In this document: positions 10,590 through 24,999 of the stretch, piece after piece
Layout of the letters: each line of letters begins with the position of its first letter
Numbering within the stretch: the first letter of the stretch is position 1
From: Deltaproteobacteria bacterium
GTDB lineage: Bacteria; Desulfobacterota; GWC2-55-46; JADFVP01
DNA length: 32,336 bases
Direction: 5' to 3'
NCBI GenBank assembly: GCA_029262515.1
Contig: JAJCZH010000015.1
Location: 1 to 32,336 of the forward strand
The notes under the pieces: model-generated
The model's database searches: none
The model's input: the letters and a program-made list of their open reading frames with translations, nothing else
Told to the model about the DNA's origin: nothing
Made by a program: the position numbers and the translations under genes

Positions 10590-10624
10590 GCTGGTCGCAG
10601 GTTCGAGCCCTGCGCGGCCCACCA
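10590..10624 (+). other. 3' end of a tRNA gene (tRNA-Lys-like), probable integration scar
   Basis: A T-stem GCAGG (10597-10601), loop TTCGAGC and CCTGC (10609-10613) are followed by an acceptor strand GCGGCCC, discriminator A and encoded CCA ending at 10624. GGTCGCAGGTTCGA is typical of bacterial tRNA-Lys. Nothing left of about 10588 can form the D-arm, anticodon arm or 5' acceptor strand, so this is not a functional tRNA. A tRNA 3' end directly followed by its terminator is what integrating elements leave at the far boundary when they rebuild the tRNA at the other end; the element would lie to the left. Identity as Lys is moderately sure, and the integration reading is inference. Confidence 0.75.
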
Positions 10625-10631
10625 ACTTGAT

Positions 10632-10686
10632 GGGGCGTAACAAACTGGTTTTTCTTAATTAAACCAGCTTGTTATGCCCCTTTTTT
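10632..10686 (+). terminator. Rho-independent terminator after the tRNA remnant
   Basis: GGGGCGTAACAAACTGGTTT at 10632-10651 pairs almost fully with the stretch 10661-10680 ending GTTATGCCCC, and is followed by TTTTTT. Position eight bases after the CCA end shows that it belonged to the tRNA gene. It may now also end transcripts of the efflux operon, which has no hairpin of its own. Confidence 0.9.
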
Positions 10687-11198
10687 GTGCGCTAAAGTGA
10701 GAGGGTTACAGGTTTTTCTGTAGCCTTTTAATTTTGATTTGTAGCATTTTTGTATAGTTTGTTTTTCGTAAGTGCTCACAAGCACCACTTTCAGTACTTC
10801 GTACCTTGGCCTTTTTTACCGAAAGCTCACCTTAAATTCAACAGTACTTCCTGTAACAAACAACCTTAACGCAACTTCTAATACAATACTTCAAGTAATA
10901 AGCATTAGCCGCCATTAATCGGTATACTTCAGAAAGCCGAATTATTTTCTCTTTCCAACCATCAACTATAGACCTAACAGGACCTCGATGCCACTTACAC
11001 TTCTTTAACTCCGATTTCACTATTTTTTAATCTTAAGTCGATACGTTGTAATTATAATAATTAACAATTGGGTTATTAGCAGTTGGATCGCTAGCAGTCA
11101 CTTGATAAGTTAATAAAATGACTCTCGAACAAAATCGCAATACTCTCTTAGAATTACTTCAAGTGTAGTGCTTGCAGATTGGGAACAGGGTAGAAACT
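10687..11198. other. Intergenic region with a degenerate repeat
   Basis: No convincing gene in about 510 AT-rich bases. At 10820-10855 lies a 36-base segment matching 12178-12213 at 29 positions. A 16-codon ORF at 11118-11168 (MTLEQNRNTLLELLQV) has no clear ribosome-binding site and ends 30 bases before the next gene; I cannot say whether it is translated. Confidence 0.4.
10820..10855 (-). repeat. Degenerate repeat, copy 1 (coding-like on the minus strand)
   Basis: Matches 12178-12213 at 29 of 36 positions. On the minus strand both copies begin TACAGGAAG. One minus-strand frame gives VTGSTVEFKVSFR here and STGRSLEFEVGFR in copy 2, and several differences between them are synonymous, which suggests remnants of a once-coding family. 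I do not recognise it. Confidence 0.4.
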
Positions 11199-12056
11199 AT
11201 GAAGGAAATTATTGATTGGCTTGTTAGTGTTAAAGCTTCGGCTTCGAAGATCTACTATAATGCTGCTTTACGCTTGTATGAGAATGTGGAGGTTGCTGAG
11301 TTTTGTAAGTGCTTAAGCAAAGAAGAAAAAGAGCATTACGATCTTATGATGAATGCTTATGAACTCATCAAAGACAGAAAAGATCACTCTACCACTATTT
11401 CTTTAGCTGAGCATACAAAGCAGGAGGTTGAGGATTTACTGCTGCTGCATGAGAAAAGTATAGCTGATGGTAACTTCACTGAGGAGAGTCTTATAGACTT
11501 ATTGATCAATTTTGAGTTTTCAGAGTGGAATAACCTGTTCGTTCATGTTGTCAATATGCTTGATCTAGAGCACAAGGAGTATGTGCCTATAGTGGCAAAG
11601 ATGCAGCAACATAAAAGGGGTATAGAGCGATTTATTGAGTCTCAACCAGGGTACGCCTTCTACCTTAATGAAATAAAAGAATTGCCAAAGATCTGGGAGG
11701 AAAAAATCCTTGTAGTGGATGATGACGTTGTAACTCTCGACCTGCTGACAACGATTGTTGAGGATGAGGGTATTATAGAGAGAGCGTCTAATGGTGAGGA
11801 AGCCCTTAAGAAGCTCGATGAAAATTATTATGCAGCTATCGTAACCGACTTTGATATGCCCATAATGAACGGTATAGACTTTTATAACGAAGCAGTTGCA
11901 AGGTACTCGAACATCAAGGAAAGATTTCTGTTTTTTAGTGGTTCTGTTGATGAAGAGTGTTATTCCTTTTTGAAAAATAGCGAAACCAAGTTCTTACAAA
12001 AACCCTCACATATAAAAGTTGTAAGGAAGGCGGTAGTAGGCATTATAGCTCGGTAA
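11199..12056 (+). CDS. Ferritin-like domain fused to a CheY-like receiver domain
   Basis: 285 residues from ATG 11199 (AGGG nine bases upstream; an earlier TTG at 11172 has no ribosome site). Residues 1-155 are helical and rubrerythrin/ferritin-like: KASASKIYYNAALRLYE, then EVAEFCKCLSKEEKEHYDLM with the ExxH iron-ligand pattern, a third helix with NFEFSEWNNLF, and a fourth with KMQQHKRGIERFI. The first-helix glutamate is not evident and the last ExxH has lost its glutamate, so a full di-iron site is doubtful. Residues about 168-285 are a complete receiver: acidic VVDDD, phospho-acceptor Asp in VTDFDMPIMNG, Ser in FFSGS and Lys in LQKPS. There is no output domain after it. It may pass a redox or iron signal by protein contact; this is inference. 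No kinase gene is adjacent, and it stands alone. Confidence 0.75.
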   Translation: MKEIIDWLVSVKASASKIYYNAALRLYENVEVAEFCKCLSKEEKEHYDLMMNAYELIKDRKDHSTTISLAEHTKQEVEDLLLLHEKSIADGNFTEESLIDLLINFEFSEWNNLFVHVVNMLDLEHKEYVPIVAKMQQHKRGIERFIESQPGYAFYLNEIKELPKIWEEKILVVDDDVVTLDLLTTIVEDEGIIERASNGEEALKKLDENYYAAIVTDFDMPIMNGIDFYNEAVARYSNIKERFLFFSGSVDEECYSFLKNSETKFLQKPSHIKVVRKAVVGIIAR

Positions 12057-12177
12057 CAAGGTCGTGTATTACTTCACTTCGGTGTCAACTCAGGATTTCT
12101 CCCGATAATAGTCAATTTCAGGTCTACCACCGACATGTATAGCTGTAGGTGTACTACGCAACTTACACCCTTCCTGT

Positions 12178-12213
12178 CGAAAGCCCACTTCAAACTCAAG
12201 ACTTCTTCCTGTA
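12178..12213 (-). repeat. Degenerate repeat, copy 2
   Basis: Second copy of the segment at 10820-10855. On the minus strand a frame runs STGRSLEFEVGFRQEG and stays open to a TGA near 12093. A weaker third copy, with CACAGGAAGATCTTTAG on the minus strand, lies at about 13339-13372. Confidence 0.4.
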
Positions 12214-12246
12214 CTCCGCACTTTGCAAGTACGCTTCCACACGCAA

Positions 12247-12262
12247 TATTTCTACCGGAAAT
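12247..12262. repeat. 16-bp exact direct repeat, copy 1
   Basis: TATTTCTACCGGAAAT occurs here and identically at 13201-13216. The two copies bracket the PEP-CTERM gene and its promoter. The sequence is nearly palindromic (ATTTC...GAAAT), so it may be a protein-binding site or the end of a small element. Confidence 0.45.
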
Positions 12263-12271
12263 AAACAAGAG

Positions 12272-12296
12272 CCCACCGGCCATTAAGACCAGTGGG
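12272..12296 (-). terminator. Terminator of the PEP-CTERM gene
   Basis: On the minus strand CCCACTGGTC and GGCCGGTGGG pair (two G-T wobbles) around a five-base loop, followed by CTCTTGTTTATTT. It lies 26 bases after the stop codon at 12323. Confidence 0.65.
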
Positions 12297-18351: not shown

Positions 18352-18568
18352 ACTACATCTTCTTGGTTCTTTATGTCAAGTGTCGATTTAGAGCCGTATT
18401 TACTCGACTTTTCTTTAGAAAAACGAAAAAATGGTTGTTACTTTTATTTAAACCTCAGGTGCTATGCATTTAAGCTTTTTTGCTCTCTACCCGATATATT
18501 ATTATGGCTTAAATAATTGCAAATATTATGAAAAAGTATTTATTCAAACTCTTGTGCAGGGTGTGTAT

Positions 18569-19573
18569 ATGAAAAAAGCGAGTTTGAGCTGGATAACGCT
18601 GTTACTTGTTACCATCTTCTTTTTAAATGCATGCGACAACCAAACCGAACAGAGCAAAACCGTGGACTCGCCTAAATCAGAGGTCAGGATAGGGCGGGTT
18701 ATCTGCGGCGGGCACCTTTCGCTTGCGATAGTCGAGAAGAAGTTTCAGAAGGAACTCGGTTCATTTACCGTCAACGCGGTTCAGTACCATGATTGGAAGG
18801 TAGTCGTAAAGGAGATGCTAGCTGGTAATTTGAGCGGCACCTTCATACTCTCTCCGCTCGCGATGGATCTTATAAAAAACGGCTTCCCCGGCAAGATCGT
18901 ACTCATGGGCGACCGCAACGGAAACGGGTTCGTGCTTTCCGAAGAGATCGGCTCTATTGAGAGCCTAAAGGGAAGAAAGTCGATAATTGCCGTTCCTCAT
19001 ATCTACTCTCAACATAATGTATTGTTGCATCTCGCGCTAAAGAATAACGGGATTTCGGAAGAGAGTATAAGTACCGTAGGCATGCCGCCTCGCGACATGA
19101 TTAATGCTCTTCGAAGGGGTGAAATAGACGGTTTTGTTGTGGGTGAGCCTGAGGCGAATAAGTCGATTAAACTCGGTGTCGGCCGCATGGCGGCCATCTC
19201 TCCGGAAATCTGGAAAGGTCATATGGACCATGTCTTTCTAGTTACTGATAAGTTTATGAGTGAAGAGCCTGAAAAGGCCAGAATGCTTGTAGCGGCGCTT
19301 TTAAAGGCAGGCCGTTTTATAGAATCGAATCCATCCGAGGCTGCGATAATAGGACAGGATTATACCGGTTCGAGTGCCAATGTCTTTGAAGAAGTGCTTA
19401 CCACGCCGCCGGACTGGATAGATTATAGCGACATGCATCCGACCGTCAGGGACTTCGATGAGTTCTCTTCTGTATTGGTTGAGATGGGGTTATGGGATGA
19501 AATGCCTGCCGACACCTCGATATTTTTTGATGGACGCTTCTTGAAGAACACAACTGTGAGCAGTGTAGAATGA
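18569..19573 (+). CDS. NrtA/SsuA-like periplasmic binding lipoprotein
   Basis: 334 residues from ATG 18569 (AGGG upstream). The signal peptide ends in a lipobox FFLNAC (Cys at about residue 22), so the protein is membrane-anchored in the periplasm. IGRVICGGHLSLAIVEKKFQ, then MLAGNLSGTFILSPLAMDLI and FVVGEPEANKSIKLG, are typical of the NMT1/THI5-like group that includes NrtA, CmpA and SsuA. Possible ligands are nitrate, bicarbonate, sulfonates or amine precursors; the sequence does not decide. Its stop overlaps the next gene's start by four bases (ATGA), and that gene is a membrane c-di-GMP sensor. There are no ABC permease or ATPase genes beside it, so it more likely delivers ligand information to the sensor than to a transporter (inference). 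Confidence 0.85.
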   Translation: MKKASLSWITLLLVTIFFLNACDNQTEQSKTVDSPKSEVRIGRVICGGHLSLAIVEKKFQKELGSFTVNAVQYHDWKVVVKEMLAGNLSGTFILSPLAMDLIKNGFPGKIVLMGDRNGNGFVLSEEIGSIESLKGRKSIIAVPHIYSQHNVLLHLALKNNGISEESISTVGMPPRDMINALRRGEIDGFVVGEPEANKSIKLGVGRMAAISPEIWKGHMDHVFLVTDKFMSEEPEKARMLVAALLKAGRFIESNPSEAAIIGQDYTGSSANVFEEVLTTPPDWIDYSDMHPTVRDFDEFSSVLVEMGLWDEMPADTSIFFDGRFLKNTTVSSVE

Positions 19574-22500
19574 CCGGAAAAAAGAAGACCTCACTGAGAA
19601 CGGCATGGTACGGCATTATATTTCTGGCTACCGTGCTGCCTTTAGTACTGCTCGTCCCATGGGTAGGCAATAAGGCCTATACATGGATGCTCGACTCATC
19701 TCTGGAGCTTCAGATGGAGGAGATACAGAGCGTAAAAGGCACCATAGAGCATGAAATAGAGCACCTCTTTATTCAACTCAGTAGTAAAAACGATGTTTTG
19801 GTCGAGCACCTCAGGCTGGCTGCCGTTAATAAGGATGCAATCGATTACGATCTACTCTCCAGAAGTGTAGACACCTTTTTTGTTACTTCAAAGAGCCTGC
19901 ACTCCATAACCATCTTCAGCAGAGAAGGTCATCCGCTTATTCACACCGATAACCCGGCATTTGAGGAAGTGACATTTCCGGAAGGTTATCAAGACCATGA
20001 TTTTTCCGAACTTTTTTCAAGGCCGGAGTTTGTTGTTCCCATGCATGGCCGCAACTACTTCGGTACTCCTTACAAGAGCGAGGGCAAGGTCTTTTTCACT
20101 ATAACAGTTCCTATCGGACCGAAAGACGCGCCGTTAGGGGTTATACGCGCCTCTGTTGAAGTCGGGGGCGTCTGGACTGAAGTGGAGAGGCATATAGAAG
20201 ACCGCGGCGCCTTAATCTACCTGGTCGATAGTCGCGGCTCTTTGTTGAATGCTTCGCAGAGAATAGGGCAGCCCGAGGGCACGCTTCTTACTGATTTCGA
20301 AATAGTAAGGAAACTTATCACCCGAAATGGGTGGAATAATGGTGAAGTATATTTAGGTTTGAATGGCGAGAATGTCTTCGGTACCGGAGTGCTTCTTGAA
20401 AGGCTTGCCTGGGCGGTTGTTTCCGAAATACCGGTTAAGCATATAAGCGGCCCTGTACTCAAGACGTTAATTCCTCTGGTCGTGTTTGTGTTGATCTTAT
20501 TTCTTGCTTGCGCCGCCTTCGGGTTGTGGCTAGTTAGCAAGGTGTTAAGGCCGATAGGGGAGCTTTCGAGCGCCTTTGCGTCTGTGTCCGATGGCGACTA
20601 TTCGAGAAAGGTAGATGCGTCATCGATTGAGGAGATCGATAGCCTGGCATCTGGTTTCAATAATATGATGTCAACGATTACCCGGCGGAAACAGGAACTG
20701 CAGTGCAGCGAAGAGGCGCTTAAAAAGAGTGAGACGAACCTTGTAAAAGCACAAGAGGTCGCTCACATCGGATCTTGGTGCTTTAACCTGCTTGAAAACA
20801 GGCTTGACTGGAGTGGTGAAAATTTCAAAATATTCGGTGTCCCTAAGGGCACCAAGATAACTCATGAAAAATTTCTAGAAGCAGTACATCCGGAAGATAG
20901 GGAGTATGTTAAAAATAAATGGAGTGCCGCCATTGAAGGAGAACCGTACGATATTGAGCACAGGCTCCTTATTGACAATGAAGTGAAGTGGGTCAGAAGA
21001 AAAGCTGAATTGAGTTTTAATGACTATGGAGAGCCAGTAAGCGCAGTTGGGACTACTCAAGATATAACCGAGCGCAAGAGAAGTGAAGAGGAGTTAAGGG
21101 AGAGTACCGCTAACCTTTCCGAAGCACAGGAGATCGCTCATATCGGCCACTGGAAACTTGACCCCGAGACGAATGAAGTAACAGGCTCCGATGAATTTTT
21201 CAGAATCTTCGGCTTAACGCGAGAGGAAGCTACCCTTGAAGCATTTGTCGAGGTGGTTCATCCTGAGGATCGGGAGCGTGACGTTGCTGCAATAACGAGG
21301 GGTATAGAGCACGGCGAGAACTGGGAAATAGAGCATCGCTTGATATGCAGGGATGGAACAGAAAAGTTCATACATGCTGTCGGAAAGGCCCGGACTGATG
21401 AGTCAGGTAAAACGGTGCTTCTCTTTGGTACTTCCCAGGACATAACCGAGCGCAAGAGGGTTGAAGAGGCCCTTAAGGTCAATGAGGCAAAGTACCGCCT
21501 GATCCATAATATCTCCTTTGACGGCATCTTAGTCGCGGATACCGATAGCCGTATTATAGAGTGCAACAGGAGCGCAGAGAGGATATTCGGGTATGATGCC
21601 GCCGAGCTGGATGGTAGGAGCCTTACCGAACTTATGCCGACGGACTATAGAGAACGGCACTTAAGCGGGGTTCAGCACTACTGCGACACCGGCCAAAGCG
21701 TGATACACGGACAGGTAGTTGAACTGGAGGGGGTAAGAAAAAACGGAGAGGTCTTCCCCATAGAACTGATAGTAACCAGTTTCGACCTCGATGGAAAAAT
21801 GGTCTTTACCGGTACGGTACGTGATATTACGGAGAGGAAAAATTCAGAAGAGTCGATCAAACACCTGGCTTACCACGATACCCTTACCGGGCTTCCGAAC
21901 AGGTCACTCTTTAAAGACCGTCTTGACCAGGTATTGCGTAGACAGGCATGGAGGCAGAAGTCGGCAGCCGTACTTTTTTTGGACCTCGATCGTTTCAAGA
22001 TAATCAATGACACGCTCGGTCACTCCTTTGGTGATGAGCTCTTGAAGGTGGTAGCCAGAAGGCTCGAAGAGTGCCTGAGGGAGGGTGATACCGTGGCGCG
22101 CCTGGGTGGTGATGAGTTCACTATTATCCTTCAGGACCTTGCGAAGGCGGATGACGTGACGTTGGTGCTTGAAAAGATATTGAATACCTTTAAGCAGCCT
22201 ATAGAGATAAGCGGACAGGAGGTTGTTATTGGCACCTCGATAGGCGCGAGTGTATTCCCTGACGACGGATACGATAGCGATACGCTTATCAAAAATGCCG
22301 ATACGGCTATGTATCGCGCTAAATCGGAAGGCAAAAACAATTTTCAATTATACTCTACAACGATGTCGACCAAGGCCAATACTCTCCTTAAGATGGAGCA
22401 CCGGTTGCGCAAGGCGATCGAAAACGGCAGATTAATGCTCCATTACCAGCCGCAACTCGATTTGAGGAACGATGAGCTTGTCGGCATGGAGGCCTTAGTC

Positions 22501-23181
22501 AGGCTTGCCGACCTGGATGACGGCAAGCTTACGTCTCCAGGAGAGTTTATTTCTGTTGCCGAGGAGACCGGGCTCATTATTCCGTTAAGCGAGTGGGTGC
22601 TGAGGACCGCATGCATGCAGAGCAAGGTCTGGTACGATACCGGTCACACGTTAACGGTGGCGGTAAATATTTCCCCGGTAATGTTCAGGCAGAAGAACTT
22701 ACTGTCGATGATTACTGATATTCTGGAGGAGACGGGTCTGAACCCCAAGTATCTTGAAATAGAGATTACGGAAGAGACTATGTTGAAGGATGCCGAAGAT
22801 ACTGTTGAGAAGATGAATGCTTTGAGAGATTTTGGCGTCAGCTTTGCGATTGACGATTTCGGAACCGGCTACTCTTCGCTAAGTTATATCAAGATGCTGC
22901 CGATAAAGATGCTCAAGATAGATAGAGCTTTTATAAACGATATCTTCACAAGCTCGGACGATAAAGCGATAGTTAAAGCCATAATTCAGATGGCACACAA
23001 CATGGATCTTGAGGTGCTGGCCGAAGGCGTGGAGACCAGACAGCAGGCAAAGTTCTTGAGGTCTATCGGGTGCGACAAACTTCAGGGGTATCTCTTTAGT
23101 AAACCTGTTCCACATGACGAGTTCAAAGATTTTCTTGGCAGAATGAGCAGTTTACAAGGGTCTATCAAGGAAGTATTGTAG
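19570..23181 (+). CDS. Membrane sensor with HAMP, three PAS, GGDEF and EAL domains
   Basis: 1203 residues. A membrane segment at about 13-33 and another at about 297-325 enclose a periplasmic domain of Cache type (HSITIFSREGHPLIHTDNPA, YFGTPYKSEGKVFFTITVPI). HAMP follows (RPIGELSSAFASVSDGDYSR), then three PAS domains, each ending in DITERK (about 500, 635, 755). GGDEF is at 846-850 with the inhibitory RxxD site (REGD) five residues before it, so cyclase activity with product inhibition is possible. The EAL domain keeps EALVR (974), EITEET, DDFGTGYSSL, LKID and AEGVET, so phosphodiesterase activity is also possible. Start ATG 19570 shares ATGA with the binding-protein gene. The two probably form a ligand-controlled c-di-GMP switch. 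The net direction of activity cannot be read from sequence. Confidence 0.93.
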   Translation: MTGKKKTSLRTAWYGIIFLATVLPLVLLVPWVGNKAYTWMLDSSLELQMEEIQSVKGTIEHEIEHLFIQLSSKNDVLVEHLRLAAVNKDAIDYDLLSRSVDTFFVTSKSLHSITIFSREGHPLIHTDNPAFEEVTFPEGYQDHDFSELFSRPEFVVPMHGRNYFGTPYKSEGKVFFTITVPIGPKDAPLGVIRASVEVGGVWTEVERHIEDRGALIYLVDSRGSLLNASQRIGQPEGTLLTDFEIVRKLITRNGWNNGEVYLGLNGENVFGTGVLLERLAWAVVSEIPVKHISGPVLKTLIPLVVFVLILFLACAAFGLWLVSKVLRPIGELSSAFASVSDGDYSRKVDASSIEEIDSLASGFNNMMSTITRRKQELQCSEEALKKSETNLVKAQEVAHIGSWCFNLLENRLDWSGENFKIFGVPKGTKITHEKFLEAVHPEDREYVKNKWSAAIEGEPYDIEHRLLIDNEVKWVRRKAELSFNDYGEPVSAVGTTQDITERKRSEEELRESTANLSEAQEIAHIGHWKLDPETNEVTGSDEFFRIFGLTREEATLEAFVEVVHPEDRERDVAAITRGIEHGENWEIEHRLICRDGTEKFIHAVGKARTDESGKTVLLFGTSQDITERKRVEEALKVNEAKYRLIHNISFDGILVADTDSRIIECNRSAERIFGYDAAELDGRSLTELMPTDYRERHLSGVQHYCDTGQSVIHGQVVELEGVRKNGEVFPIELIVTSFDLDGKMVFTGTVRDITERKNSEESIKHLAYHDTLTGLPNRSLFKDRLDQVLRRQAWRQKSAAVLFLDLDRFKIINDTLGHSFGDELLKVVARRLEECLREGDTVARLGGDEFTIILQDLAKADDVTLVLEKILNTFKQPIEISGQEVVIGTSIGASVFPDDGYDSDTLIKNADTAMYRAKSEGKNNFQLYSTTMSTKANTLLKMEHRLRKAIENGRLMLHYQPQLDLRNDELVGMEALVRLADLDDGKLTSPGEFISVAEETGLIIPLSEWVLRTACMQSKVWYDTGHTLTVAVNISPVMFRQKNLLSMITDILEETGLNPKYLEIEITEETMLKDAEDTVEKMNALRDFGVSFAIDDFGTGYSSLSYIKMLPIKMLKIDRAFINDIFTSSDDKAIVKAIIQMAHNMDLEVLAEGVETRQQAKFLRSIGCDKLQGYLFSKPVPHDEFKDFLGRMSSLQGSIKEVL

Positions 23182-23327: not shown

Positions 23328-24461
23328 TTAGACCGCTCTATCATATAGTCTTGCGAACTCTTTATGCGTGTCTTTAAACAGCTCCAGCATTTTCGGGTCG
23401 AAGTGTTCCGGTTCCGTCCTTCCGTCCCCTTCTGTTATAACTGTGTACGCCGCATCGTGTTCAAGGCCAAACTTGTACGGCCTTGAGCTTCTTAACGCAT
23501 CGTATTGATCGATAAGATTCATGATCCTGCCTTCGATCGGAATTTCCGTCTCTTTAAGCCCGCTCGGGTATCCGCTGCCGTCCCATCTTTCATGATGAGT
23601 CAAGGCGATTTTGCTGCCCATCTGCAGGAATTCCGATTTCGAGGATTGAAGAATCTTCGCACCAACCGTGGCGTGAGTGCTCATCAGGGTAAACTCCTCG
23701 GAGTTCAGACCTCCTGTCTTGAGCAGAATCTCTGACGGTATGCCAACTTTCCCGATATCATGCAGTGGGCTCGCATACGATATCAGCTCAACCTCTTCTT
23801 CTGACAGTCCCAATTTTTTTGCAACAAAAGAGGCGTAGTTGCTTACTCGTTTAACATGTAATGCCGTTTCCTGGTCTTTGAATTCGGCGATCAGGGTCAA
23901 CCTGTGGATTGTTTCCAGAGTGCTTTCCTTTGCAGCCAGCGTTGAGATTCTTAGCAGTTCGCTCGTCTCTTGAAGTTTAAAAGTCCTTTCTTCTACACGT
24001 AATTCCAAATCCTTGTTGAGTTCTACGAGTTCTCTGTTCTGGCTCTTCGTCAACTCAAGCAGGTTTCTGTTTTCGTTGATCAGTTCGTAACGGTCCAGAG
24101 CCTCCTTTACTGCGAACTTTAAACCGTCGTCGTTCCAGGGTTTGGTAACATAACGGTACACCTCTCCGCTGTTAATAGCCGCTGAAATAGCTTCTATGTC
24201 CGAGTATCCGGTAAGCATGAACCGTATGCTTGCTGGCGTGATCTCTTTTGCCTGCGAGAGGAATTCAACACCGTTCATCTTGAGCATTTTATTGTCGGAG
24301 ATTATAAGGGCTACCGTATTTGCTTTGAGGATCTCAAGACCCTCCATTCCACTCAAAGCGGTAAGTATGTTGTAGTTCTCACGCCTGAAGAGTCTTTTAA
24401 GGGAGGCGAGTATATTAGTATCGTCGTCTACAAGTAGAATGGTATGTCTGTTATTCTCCAT
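23328..24461 (-). CDS. Response regulator with HD-GYP c-di-GMP phosphodiesterase domain (RpfG-like)
   Basis: 377 residues from ATG 24461, chosen because AGGTAACCAC precedes it and the receiver starts at once (RHTILLVDDD); longer versions add an implausible leader. Receiver residues: VDDD, phospho-acceptor Asp in IISDNKMLKMNG (Leu replaces the usual Pro), Thr in MLTGYSD, Lys in YVTKPW. A coiled coil (about 130-185) leads to the HD-GYP domain with HVKRVSNYASFVAKKLGL, SPLHDIGKVGIP and HHERWDGSGYPSGL, all metal and catalytic motifs present. Such proteins break down c-di-GMP on phosphorylation. It faces the GGDEF-EAL gene end to end, giving both synthesis and breakdown functions in one locus. No dedicated kinase gene is adjacent. 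Confidence 0.93.
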   Translation of the reverse strand: MENNRHTILLVDDDTNILASLKRLFRRENYNILTALSGMEGLEILKANTVALIISDNKMLKMNGVEFLSQAKEITPASIRFMLTGYSDIEAISAAINSGEVYRYVTKPWNDDGLKFAVKEALDRYELINENRNLLELTKSQNRELVELNKDLELRVEERTFKLQETSELLRISTLAAKESTLETIHRLTLIAEFKDQETALHVKRVSNYASFVAKKLGLSEEEVELISYASPLHDIGKVGIPSEILLKTGGLNSEEFTLMSTHATVGAKILQSSKSEFLQMGSKIALTHHERWDGSGYPSGLKETEIPIEGRIMNLIDQYDALRSSRPYKFGLEHDAAYTVITEGDGRTEPEHFDPKMLELFKDTHKEFARLYDRAV

Positions 24462-24999
24462 GTGGTTACCTATCTTCATTAGAGGTGAAGTGTAAGGCTC
24501 AACTATAAACTGCATCCCCTTTACACGCAGCTCGACCTGCAATATCTTAACAGAGGACGTAAACCTACTTCCAGGCCATTCCAGATATGTACAGCTAGAC
24601 AAATAAGTAATAAATTATCAAGGAAGTTTTGTATTGTTTCAATACATTATCATTGCTTCAGTTAATTGTCAAGAATATACACCCGGAATTACTGGTTGAT
24701 TTTTGAGATAAAGTAAACGTCACTATTGGTATATATATCCGGCATTATTGTCATATTTTGTGAGTGCGGTTTGCAGGTAAGACTCCAGTTCAACTTAAAC
24801 CTTGTTATTGATGGGCTTTATGTGTTAGTTTAAACGTTAATCAGCGCCATTCGGTCGGCGTGTATCTTAGTGCCACGTAAGTATTGAACCCTTCCGCTTC
24901 AATTTTACCCACACACTACTATTAATTGAGAACCTTCGACCGGTCCCGTATTCACGGGCAAGGTTTTATAACCAAGTTTTCATAATGGAGAAGAAGTAC
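24462..24999. other. Divergent intergenic region between the HD-GYP and DEAD-box genes
   Basis: About 540 bases without a convincing gene. The part nearest the helicase holds a hairpin at 24931-24965. AT-rich stretches around 24640-24740 could hold promoters, but none is clear enough to call. Confidence 0.45.
24931..24965 (+). promoter_or_regulatory. Leader hairpin before the DEAD-box helicase gene
   Basis: AACCTT (24931-24936) pairs with AAGGTT (24960-24965) around an inner stem CCCGT/ACGGG (24945-24949 and 24954-24958) with loop ATTC, followed by TTTTAT. It ends 22 bases before the ribosome-binding GGAG. It could be an attenuator-like element or a helicase target for autoregulation. Confidence 0.5.

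Follow-up and report, generated by a model that had tools for sequence, protein, structure and literature searches.

The gene and its domain layout

The stretch of DNA analysed here (the window, 32,336 nucleotides) carries on its forward strand an open reading frame with an ATG at position 11199 and a stop codon at 12054-12056, encoding a protein of 285 amino acids; a TTG at 11172 also opens the same frame. These coordinates agree with those of a preliminary description of the region. The following features were assigned:

11199..12056, forward strand: whole gene, ferritin-like domain plus receiver; 285 amino acids, stop codon included; a full-length second copy exists in the same genome
11199..11696, forward strand: rubrerythrin/ferritin-like domain, residues 1-166; assigned through relatives and a structural model, the single sequence being without match
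11232..11234, forward strand: codon 12, AAA (Lys), at the first candidate metal ligand position in helix 1; Glu in 49 of 51 relatives
11325..11336, forward strand: E43xxH46, candidate helix-2 ligand pair; from profile alignment and family conservation
11514..11525, forward strand: E106xxE109, candidate helix-3 ligand pair in the motif EFSEWN; E106 from profile alignment, E109 from its spacing to E106, both from family conservation
11601..11612, forward strand: M135xxH138, position of the helix-4 ExxH, with Glu replaced by an aliphatic residue and His kept; from profile alignment and family conservation
11703..12053, forward strand: CheY-like receiver (REC), residues 169-285; Pfam profile match
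11718..11723, forward strand: D174-D175, acidic pair of the receiver
11847..11849, forward strand: D217, predicted phosphorylation site
11937..11939, forward strand: S247, Ser/Thr switch residue of the receiver
12000..12002, forward strand: K268, conserved lysine of the receiver

A Pfam scan of the window protein returned Response_reg only (residues 170-279, E 3.8e-13). Both the fold profile of PF00072 and the phosphoacceptor residues (D174/D175, D217, S247, K268) are thus present, and the receiver had rightly been described as complete and as lacking an output domain: the scan found nothing behind REC, neither a DNA-binding nor an enzymatic part. Nor did Pfam detect a CheW domain N-terminal to REC in this protein. 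A rubredoxin FeS4 domain is absent from the window protein and from ten relatives scanned in the same way; REC follows the bundle.

Evidence for a ferritin-like fold

Residues 1-166 alone matched no Pfam family (best E 0.24, to an unrelated model), no NCBIfam model and no PDB sequence, so the identity of the domain was judged through its relatives. Among 27 N-terminal domains of the family, 19 matched Pfam Rubrerythrin (PF02915) at E ≤ 1, the best at 1.9e-8, and six weakly matched MbfA of NCBIfam (best 0.0005). Ten relatives were also scanned one at a time, and two of them exceeded the Pfam cut-off of 22.8 bits: L019 with 25.8 and L029 with 33.3. The family profile, compared with PDB, gave as top matches 2fzf, a designed diiron protein and ferritins. 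An hhalign comparison of the 27-sequence profile with five rubrerythrin-type proteins of the same genome covered 148 columns (E 4.4e-5, probability 69%); in its register positions 12, 43, 46, 106 and 138 lie on conserved rubrerythrin-type ligands and position 135 falls on the Glu of the helix-4 ExxH.

AlphaFold, applied to the full protein as a single sequence, gave a pLDDT of 41.5; the N-terminal domain was therefore modelled with three sequences instead, a small number with which a pLDDT of 81.7 and a pTM of 0.79 were reached. Helices in this model span residues 2-25, 30-57, 71-89, 95-106, 110-122, 126-148 and 153-161. The top VIA-align match was 1vjx, a ferritin-like diiron-carboxylate protein (Z 12.7, rmsd 2.7, 139 aligned residues), followed by YciF (Z 11.5) and ferritins; for helical bundles a Z below about 13 may reflect no more than a common arrangement, which makes the best value here borderline, and a fold missing from the VIA-align list is not thereby excluded. 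Residues 6-181 of NP_951600.1 from G. sulfurreducens (PDB 3ezu), a multidomain GGDEF protein, also align to the model (Z 10.4, rmsd 3.2, 139 residues), with a Z within the range explained by the common helical arrangement; its output is GGDEF where the window protein has a receiver. Foldseek matches were weak, with E-values of 0.07 or worse.

A ferritin-like helical bundle is thus seen in the predicted model, and family profiles and the ligand register agree with it in upholding the ferritin-like nature that the preliminary description had given to the N-terminal part. That description had named a non-ferritin bundle as the prediction that would speak against it; a ferritin-like one was obtained. 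A DHp or HPt fold was considered as well and rejected on the Pfam Rubrerythrin matches, the PDB profile matches and the alignment to rubrerythrin-type proteins.

Distribution and architecture of the family

The same genome encodes a second full-length copy (C3:86055-86915, L002), which is 35% identical to the window protein and retains all six candidate metal ligands treated below. When residues 1-166 were used as query against 395 genomes of the phylum, 24 of these contained a match at E ≤ 0.01. With the 27-sequence profile at E ≤ 1e-12, 20 of the 395 were matched: 13 of the 14 sampled genomes of the order, none of three from the rest of the class and seven of the remaining 378 (7/381 outside the order). 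Across the whole order, 35 of 48 genomes had a match at this threshold and 40 of 48 at E ≤ 1e-4, the weak matches looking like ordinary rubrerythrins.

Of 53 distinct open reading frames matched by the N-terminal profile at E ≤ 1e-10, 51 continue in frame into REC; the figure calls for caution in that the window domain and its relatives had served as queries in gathering the set. Of the two frames without REC, L010 encodes 137 aa and lies on a contig of 3.3 kb, and L033 (149 aa, E 1.5e-11) is a weak and probably ordinary rubrerythrin-like match. By these sequences, a domain of the window type appears nearly always joined to REC, and the order of bundle and receiver noted earlier is not due to chance. 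Identical proteins (L009 and L014) were counted once. L010 was left out of the 27- and 28-row alignments, and L010 and L033 out of the tree and the conservation ranking; a degenerate tandem copy (L017:2480-3340) was excluded from the 27-row alignment and included in the 28-row alignment and in all counts over 51 members.

Viral contigs yielded no protein combining a ferritin-like domain with REC, the ten matched loci aligning in the REC part only. Full-text searches of a literature collection that mostly omits subscription papers listed no paper recognisable, by its title, opening abstract lines or passages, as a description of such a fusion. Both domains are known singly; what would be new is a ligand set at once altered and conserved, in a family of this size (about 50 proteins).

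A conserved but altered candidate metal site

Conservation was ranked over the 166 domain positions of the 51 REC-bearing members. E106 and Y19 are found in all 51, H138, E109 and E43 in 50, and N111, H46 and E12 in 49; the six candidate ligands E12, E43, H46, E106, E109 and H138 thus all belong to the top eight positions. Position 135, which we take to be the site of the second bridging glutamate of rubrerythrin, carries I, M, V or L in all but one of the 51 members. The full diiron ligand set of rubrerythrin, including the helix-4 ExxH, is accordingly not found in the family. Judged from its sequences, the family retains six of the seven predicted rubrerythrin-type ligands in an altered arrangement. 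It shares with the rubrerythrin/ferritin-like superfamily (PF02915) the bundle fold and the E, ExxH, ExxE and His positions, and some members reach the Pfam cut-off; it differs from rubrerythrin in being fused to a receiver, in having no rubredoxin and in the aliphatic residue that replaces the bridging Glu of helix 4.

The window copy departs further. It has five candidate ligands (E43, H46, E106, E109, H138) and carries K12 in place of E12, a substitution unique among the 51; the only other exception at position 12 is an Asp in a degenerate copy. Since GAA to AAA is a change of one base, a sequencing error at codon 12 is possible. A precedent for Lys replacing a metal ligand is the metal-free R2 of class Ie ribonucleotide reductase, as described in a published account (PMC11846895). 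From its sequence the window copy may lack a normal metal site, and normal two-metal binding has probably been lost.

The ligands originally listed for this domain, one ExxH (E43/H46) and a Glu in helix 3, are indeed there, but they are not the only ones left, since E109 and H138 are kept too. Other iron ligands had been called missing, which holds for K12 and M135; the change at M135 is common to the family and K12 is this copy's own. The accompanying proposal of a domain derived from ferritin without its iron site misfits a family in which six of seven ligands are nearly invariant, and may fit the K12 copy.

Variation in the receiver and a tandem pair

D217 is present in 49 of 51 members. 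The exceptions, L015 (Cys) and L017 (Ala), both have the six metal ligands, so phosphorylation is not universal in the family. A clade of three loci (L142, L143, L144) has a divergent receiver with weak REC scores behind a standard ferritin-like domain; D217 is retained there, and Ser and Arg probably stand at the positions of the acidic pair.

Tandem copies occur at three loci (L077, L082, L115). At L082, in genome G147, the genes L017:1501-2382 and L017:2480-3340 lie in tandem, the first 88 bp before the second. The first keeps the six metal ligands and has Ala at D217; the second has lost most ligands (D12, R43, S46, R109, R138) and retains D217. These complementary losses, a single case read from sequence, suggest that metal binding and phosphorylation are functions which can be separated and which may operate in trans.

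Gene neighbourhood and origin of the window gene

Most family genes stand alone without a conserved neighbour, and no general gene partner emerged from the 40 of 41 loci in which the gene was picked (L090 being the locus missed). Upstream of the window gene, an outer-membrane efflux protein and an RND pump are encoded; none of the genes that adjoin it within the window is for a kinase. In one clade (L084, L091, L102, L106, L108) a conserved gene of about 186 codons follows directly downstream on the same strand; by eye, its product is apparently exported. A hybrid histidine kinase, recognised by eye from the sequence, comes after this gene at L102 and L106 and a REC-HD-GYP gene occurs at L084, L091 and L102, so that kinase and/or REC-HD-GYP genes follow in four of the five loci. 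CheW is present in all 48 genomes of the order, and co-occurrence is therefore uninformative on a role in chemotaxis.

Some further genes may be mentioned. An MsrA-like gene (methionine sulfoxide reductase, by eye) lies near the family gene in six of 41 loci (L083, L092, L105, L112, L113, L114), among them that of the second copy in the genome of the window; this would fit a link to oxidative stress. Within the window, at 18464-23181, the gene for an NMT1-like substrate-binding protein overlaps the start of that for a HAMP-PAS-GGDEF-EAL protein of 1203 aa, in which Cache is weakly matched; the two are possibly a ligand-sensing c-di-GMP pair. On the opposite strand to this pair, 23328-24602 is occupied by a REC-HD-GYP gene.

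At 38.5% GC the window gene is richer in AT than the window as a whole (46.5% GC), and its protein is closest to L127 of G096 from another family of the phylum (46.5% identity). In the tree, copies from two other genomes of the same genus are placed elsewhere, and the window row stands at an unresolved fork. The gene is flanked by a diverged direct repeat (10794-10918 and 12151-12286, 63% over 136 columns, E 2e-7). Matches to the segment 12120-12300 occur on other contigs of the genome as well (16 more at E ≤ 0.1) and mark it as a dispersed intergenic repeat. The window gene was likely gained horizontally or relocated. Around 10590-10680 there is a stretch that by eye resembles the 3' portion of a tRNA with a terminal CCA, and a strong hairpin comes next (10632-10680); ARAGORN found no tRNA in the window. 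Similar stretches lie at C16:195-238 (91%) and C16:21446-21570 (70%), and the segment is possibly the remnant of an integration site.

Proposed function

By sequence, the architecture, the near-invariance of six positions and the completeness of the receiver are established. We read the protein, with about even confidence, as an orphan signalling protein in which the rubrerythrin-like domain serves as a metal- or redox-responsive input to the C-terminal CheY-like receiver. The six residues would bind either a single metal ion or a pair, with iron the likeliest metal, and oxidation by O2 or peroxide, or a change in metal occupancy, would alter the bundle. The last helix of the domain, residues 153-161 of the model, could relay this change to the receiver, whose phosphorylation or docking to a partner would then be altered; the phosphate would come from a kinase acting in trans. 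The window copy, with K12, would be a metal-independent variant or would work beside the intact second copy on C3. The link from redox or iron state to phosphorelay that had been suggested for this gene is a plausible proposal.

Known systems offer partial parallels. CheY-like response regulators (PF00072) have the same complete receiver, which here stands C-terminally behind a ferritin-like domain, without a DNA-binding or enzymatic output. In CheV, a CheW-REC protein, the CheW part is regulated by the C-terminal receiver; CheV too joins such a receiver to a non-kinase N-terminal domain, which in our family is ferritin-like and not CheW. Two reports (PMC12607906, PMC10101095) propose an O2 or redox input role for bacteriohemerythrin domains that are joined to PAS, kinase or diguanylate cyclase parts. 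In those accounts, as in our reading, a non-haem diiron four-helix domain is the proposed sensor. Hemerythrin, with its His-rich ligand set, belongs to another fold family, and its partner is kinase-like or a cyclase, whereas here it is a receiver alone.

The input role is favoured over its main rival, in which the ferritin-like domain is the output, i.e. a rubrerythrin-like enzyme for peroxide or O2 reduction or for iron binding that is switched by receiver phosphorylation, as in CheV. The near-invariant ligands and the lack of any other output domain agree with this alternative, and C-terminal receivers often regulate the part that precedes them. Without the helix-4 Glu, absent family-wide, and without a rubredoxin domain, classical rubrerythrin peroxidase chemistry is nevertheless improbable, and two members retain the ligands but lack D217; we consider an output role unlikely. 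Less probable again is a purely structural domain for dimerisation or docking, metal-free in the window copy, the protein then being a CheY-type regulator with a helical adaptor. K12 would suit such a domain, as would the degenerate copy of G147 that persists with an intact receiver after the loss of most ligands, but for the family as a whole it conflicts with six ligand positions near-invariant in 51 divergent proteins. It is very improbable that residues 1-166 form a different helical domain, such as DHp, HPt or a generic four-helix bundle, whose resemblance to ferritin is superficial: although the single window sequence matches no family and Z values of helical bundles may mislead, relatives match Pfam Rubrerythrin down to 1.9e-8, the conserved positions fit the rubrerythrin ligand pattern across four helices and the PDB profile matches are headed by ferritin-like and designed diiron proteins.

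Returning to the input role, a bolder version of it, which we put forward tentatively and do not yet expect to hold, would see these proteins as a novel class of sensors for metal or redox state. They would be response regulators with their own ferritin-like domain and a six-ligand site, in which an aliphatic residue replaces the bridging carboxylate of helix 4, so that a single protein unites phosphorylation with metal or oxygen state. On this view the window copy would be a Lys-substituted, metal-free form beside an intact paralogue.

Ferritin-like proteins are known mainly for catalysis and for storing iron. If the fold does serve in signalling, it would be a counterpart to the hemerythrin sensors, and two-component signalling would gain a non-haem metal input. 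The ligand set, altered yet conserved, offers a direct test of a ferritin-like site without the bridging carboxylate, and the natural exceptions, the K12 window copy and the complementary G147 pair, provide ready-made comparisons.
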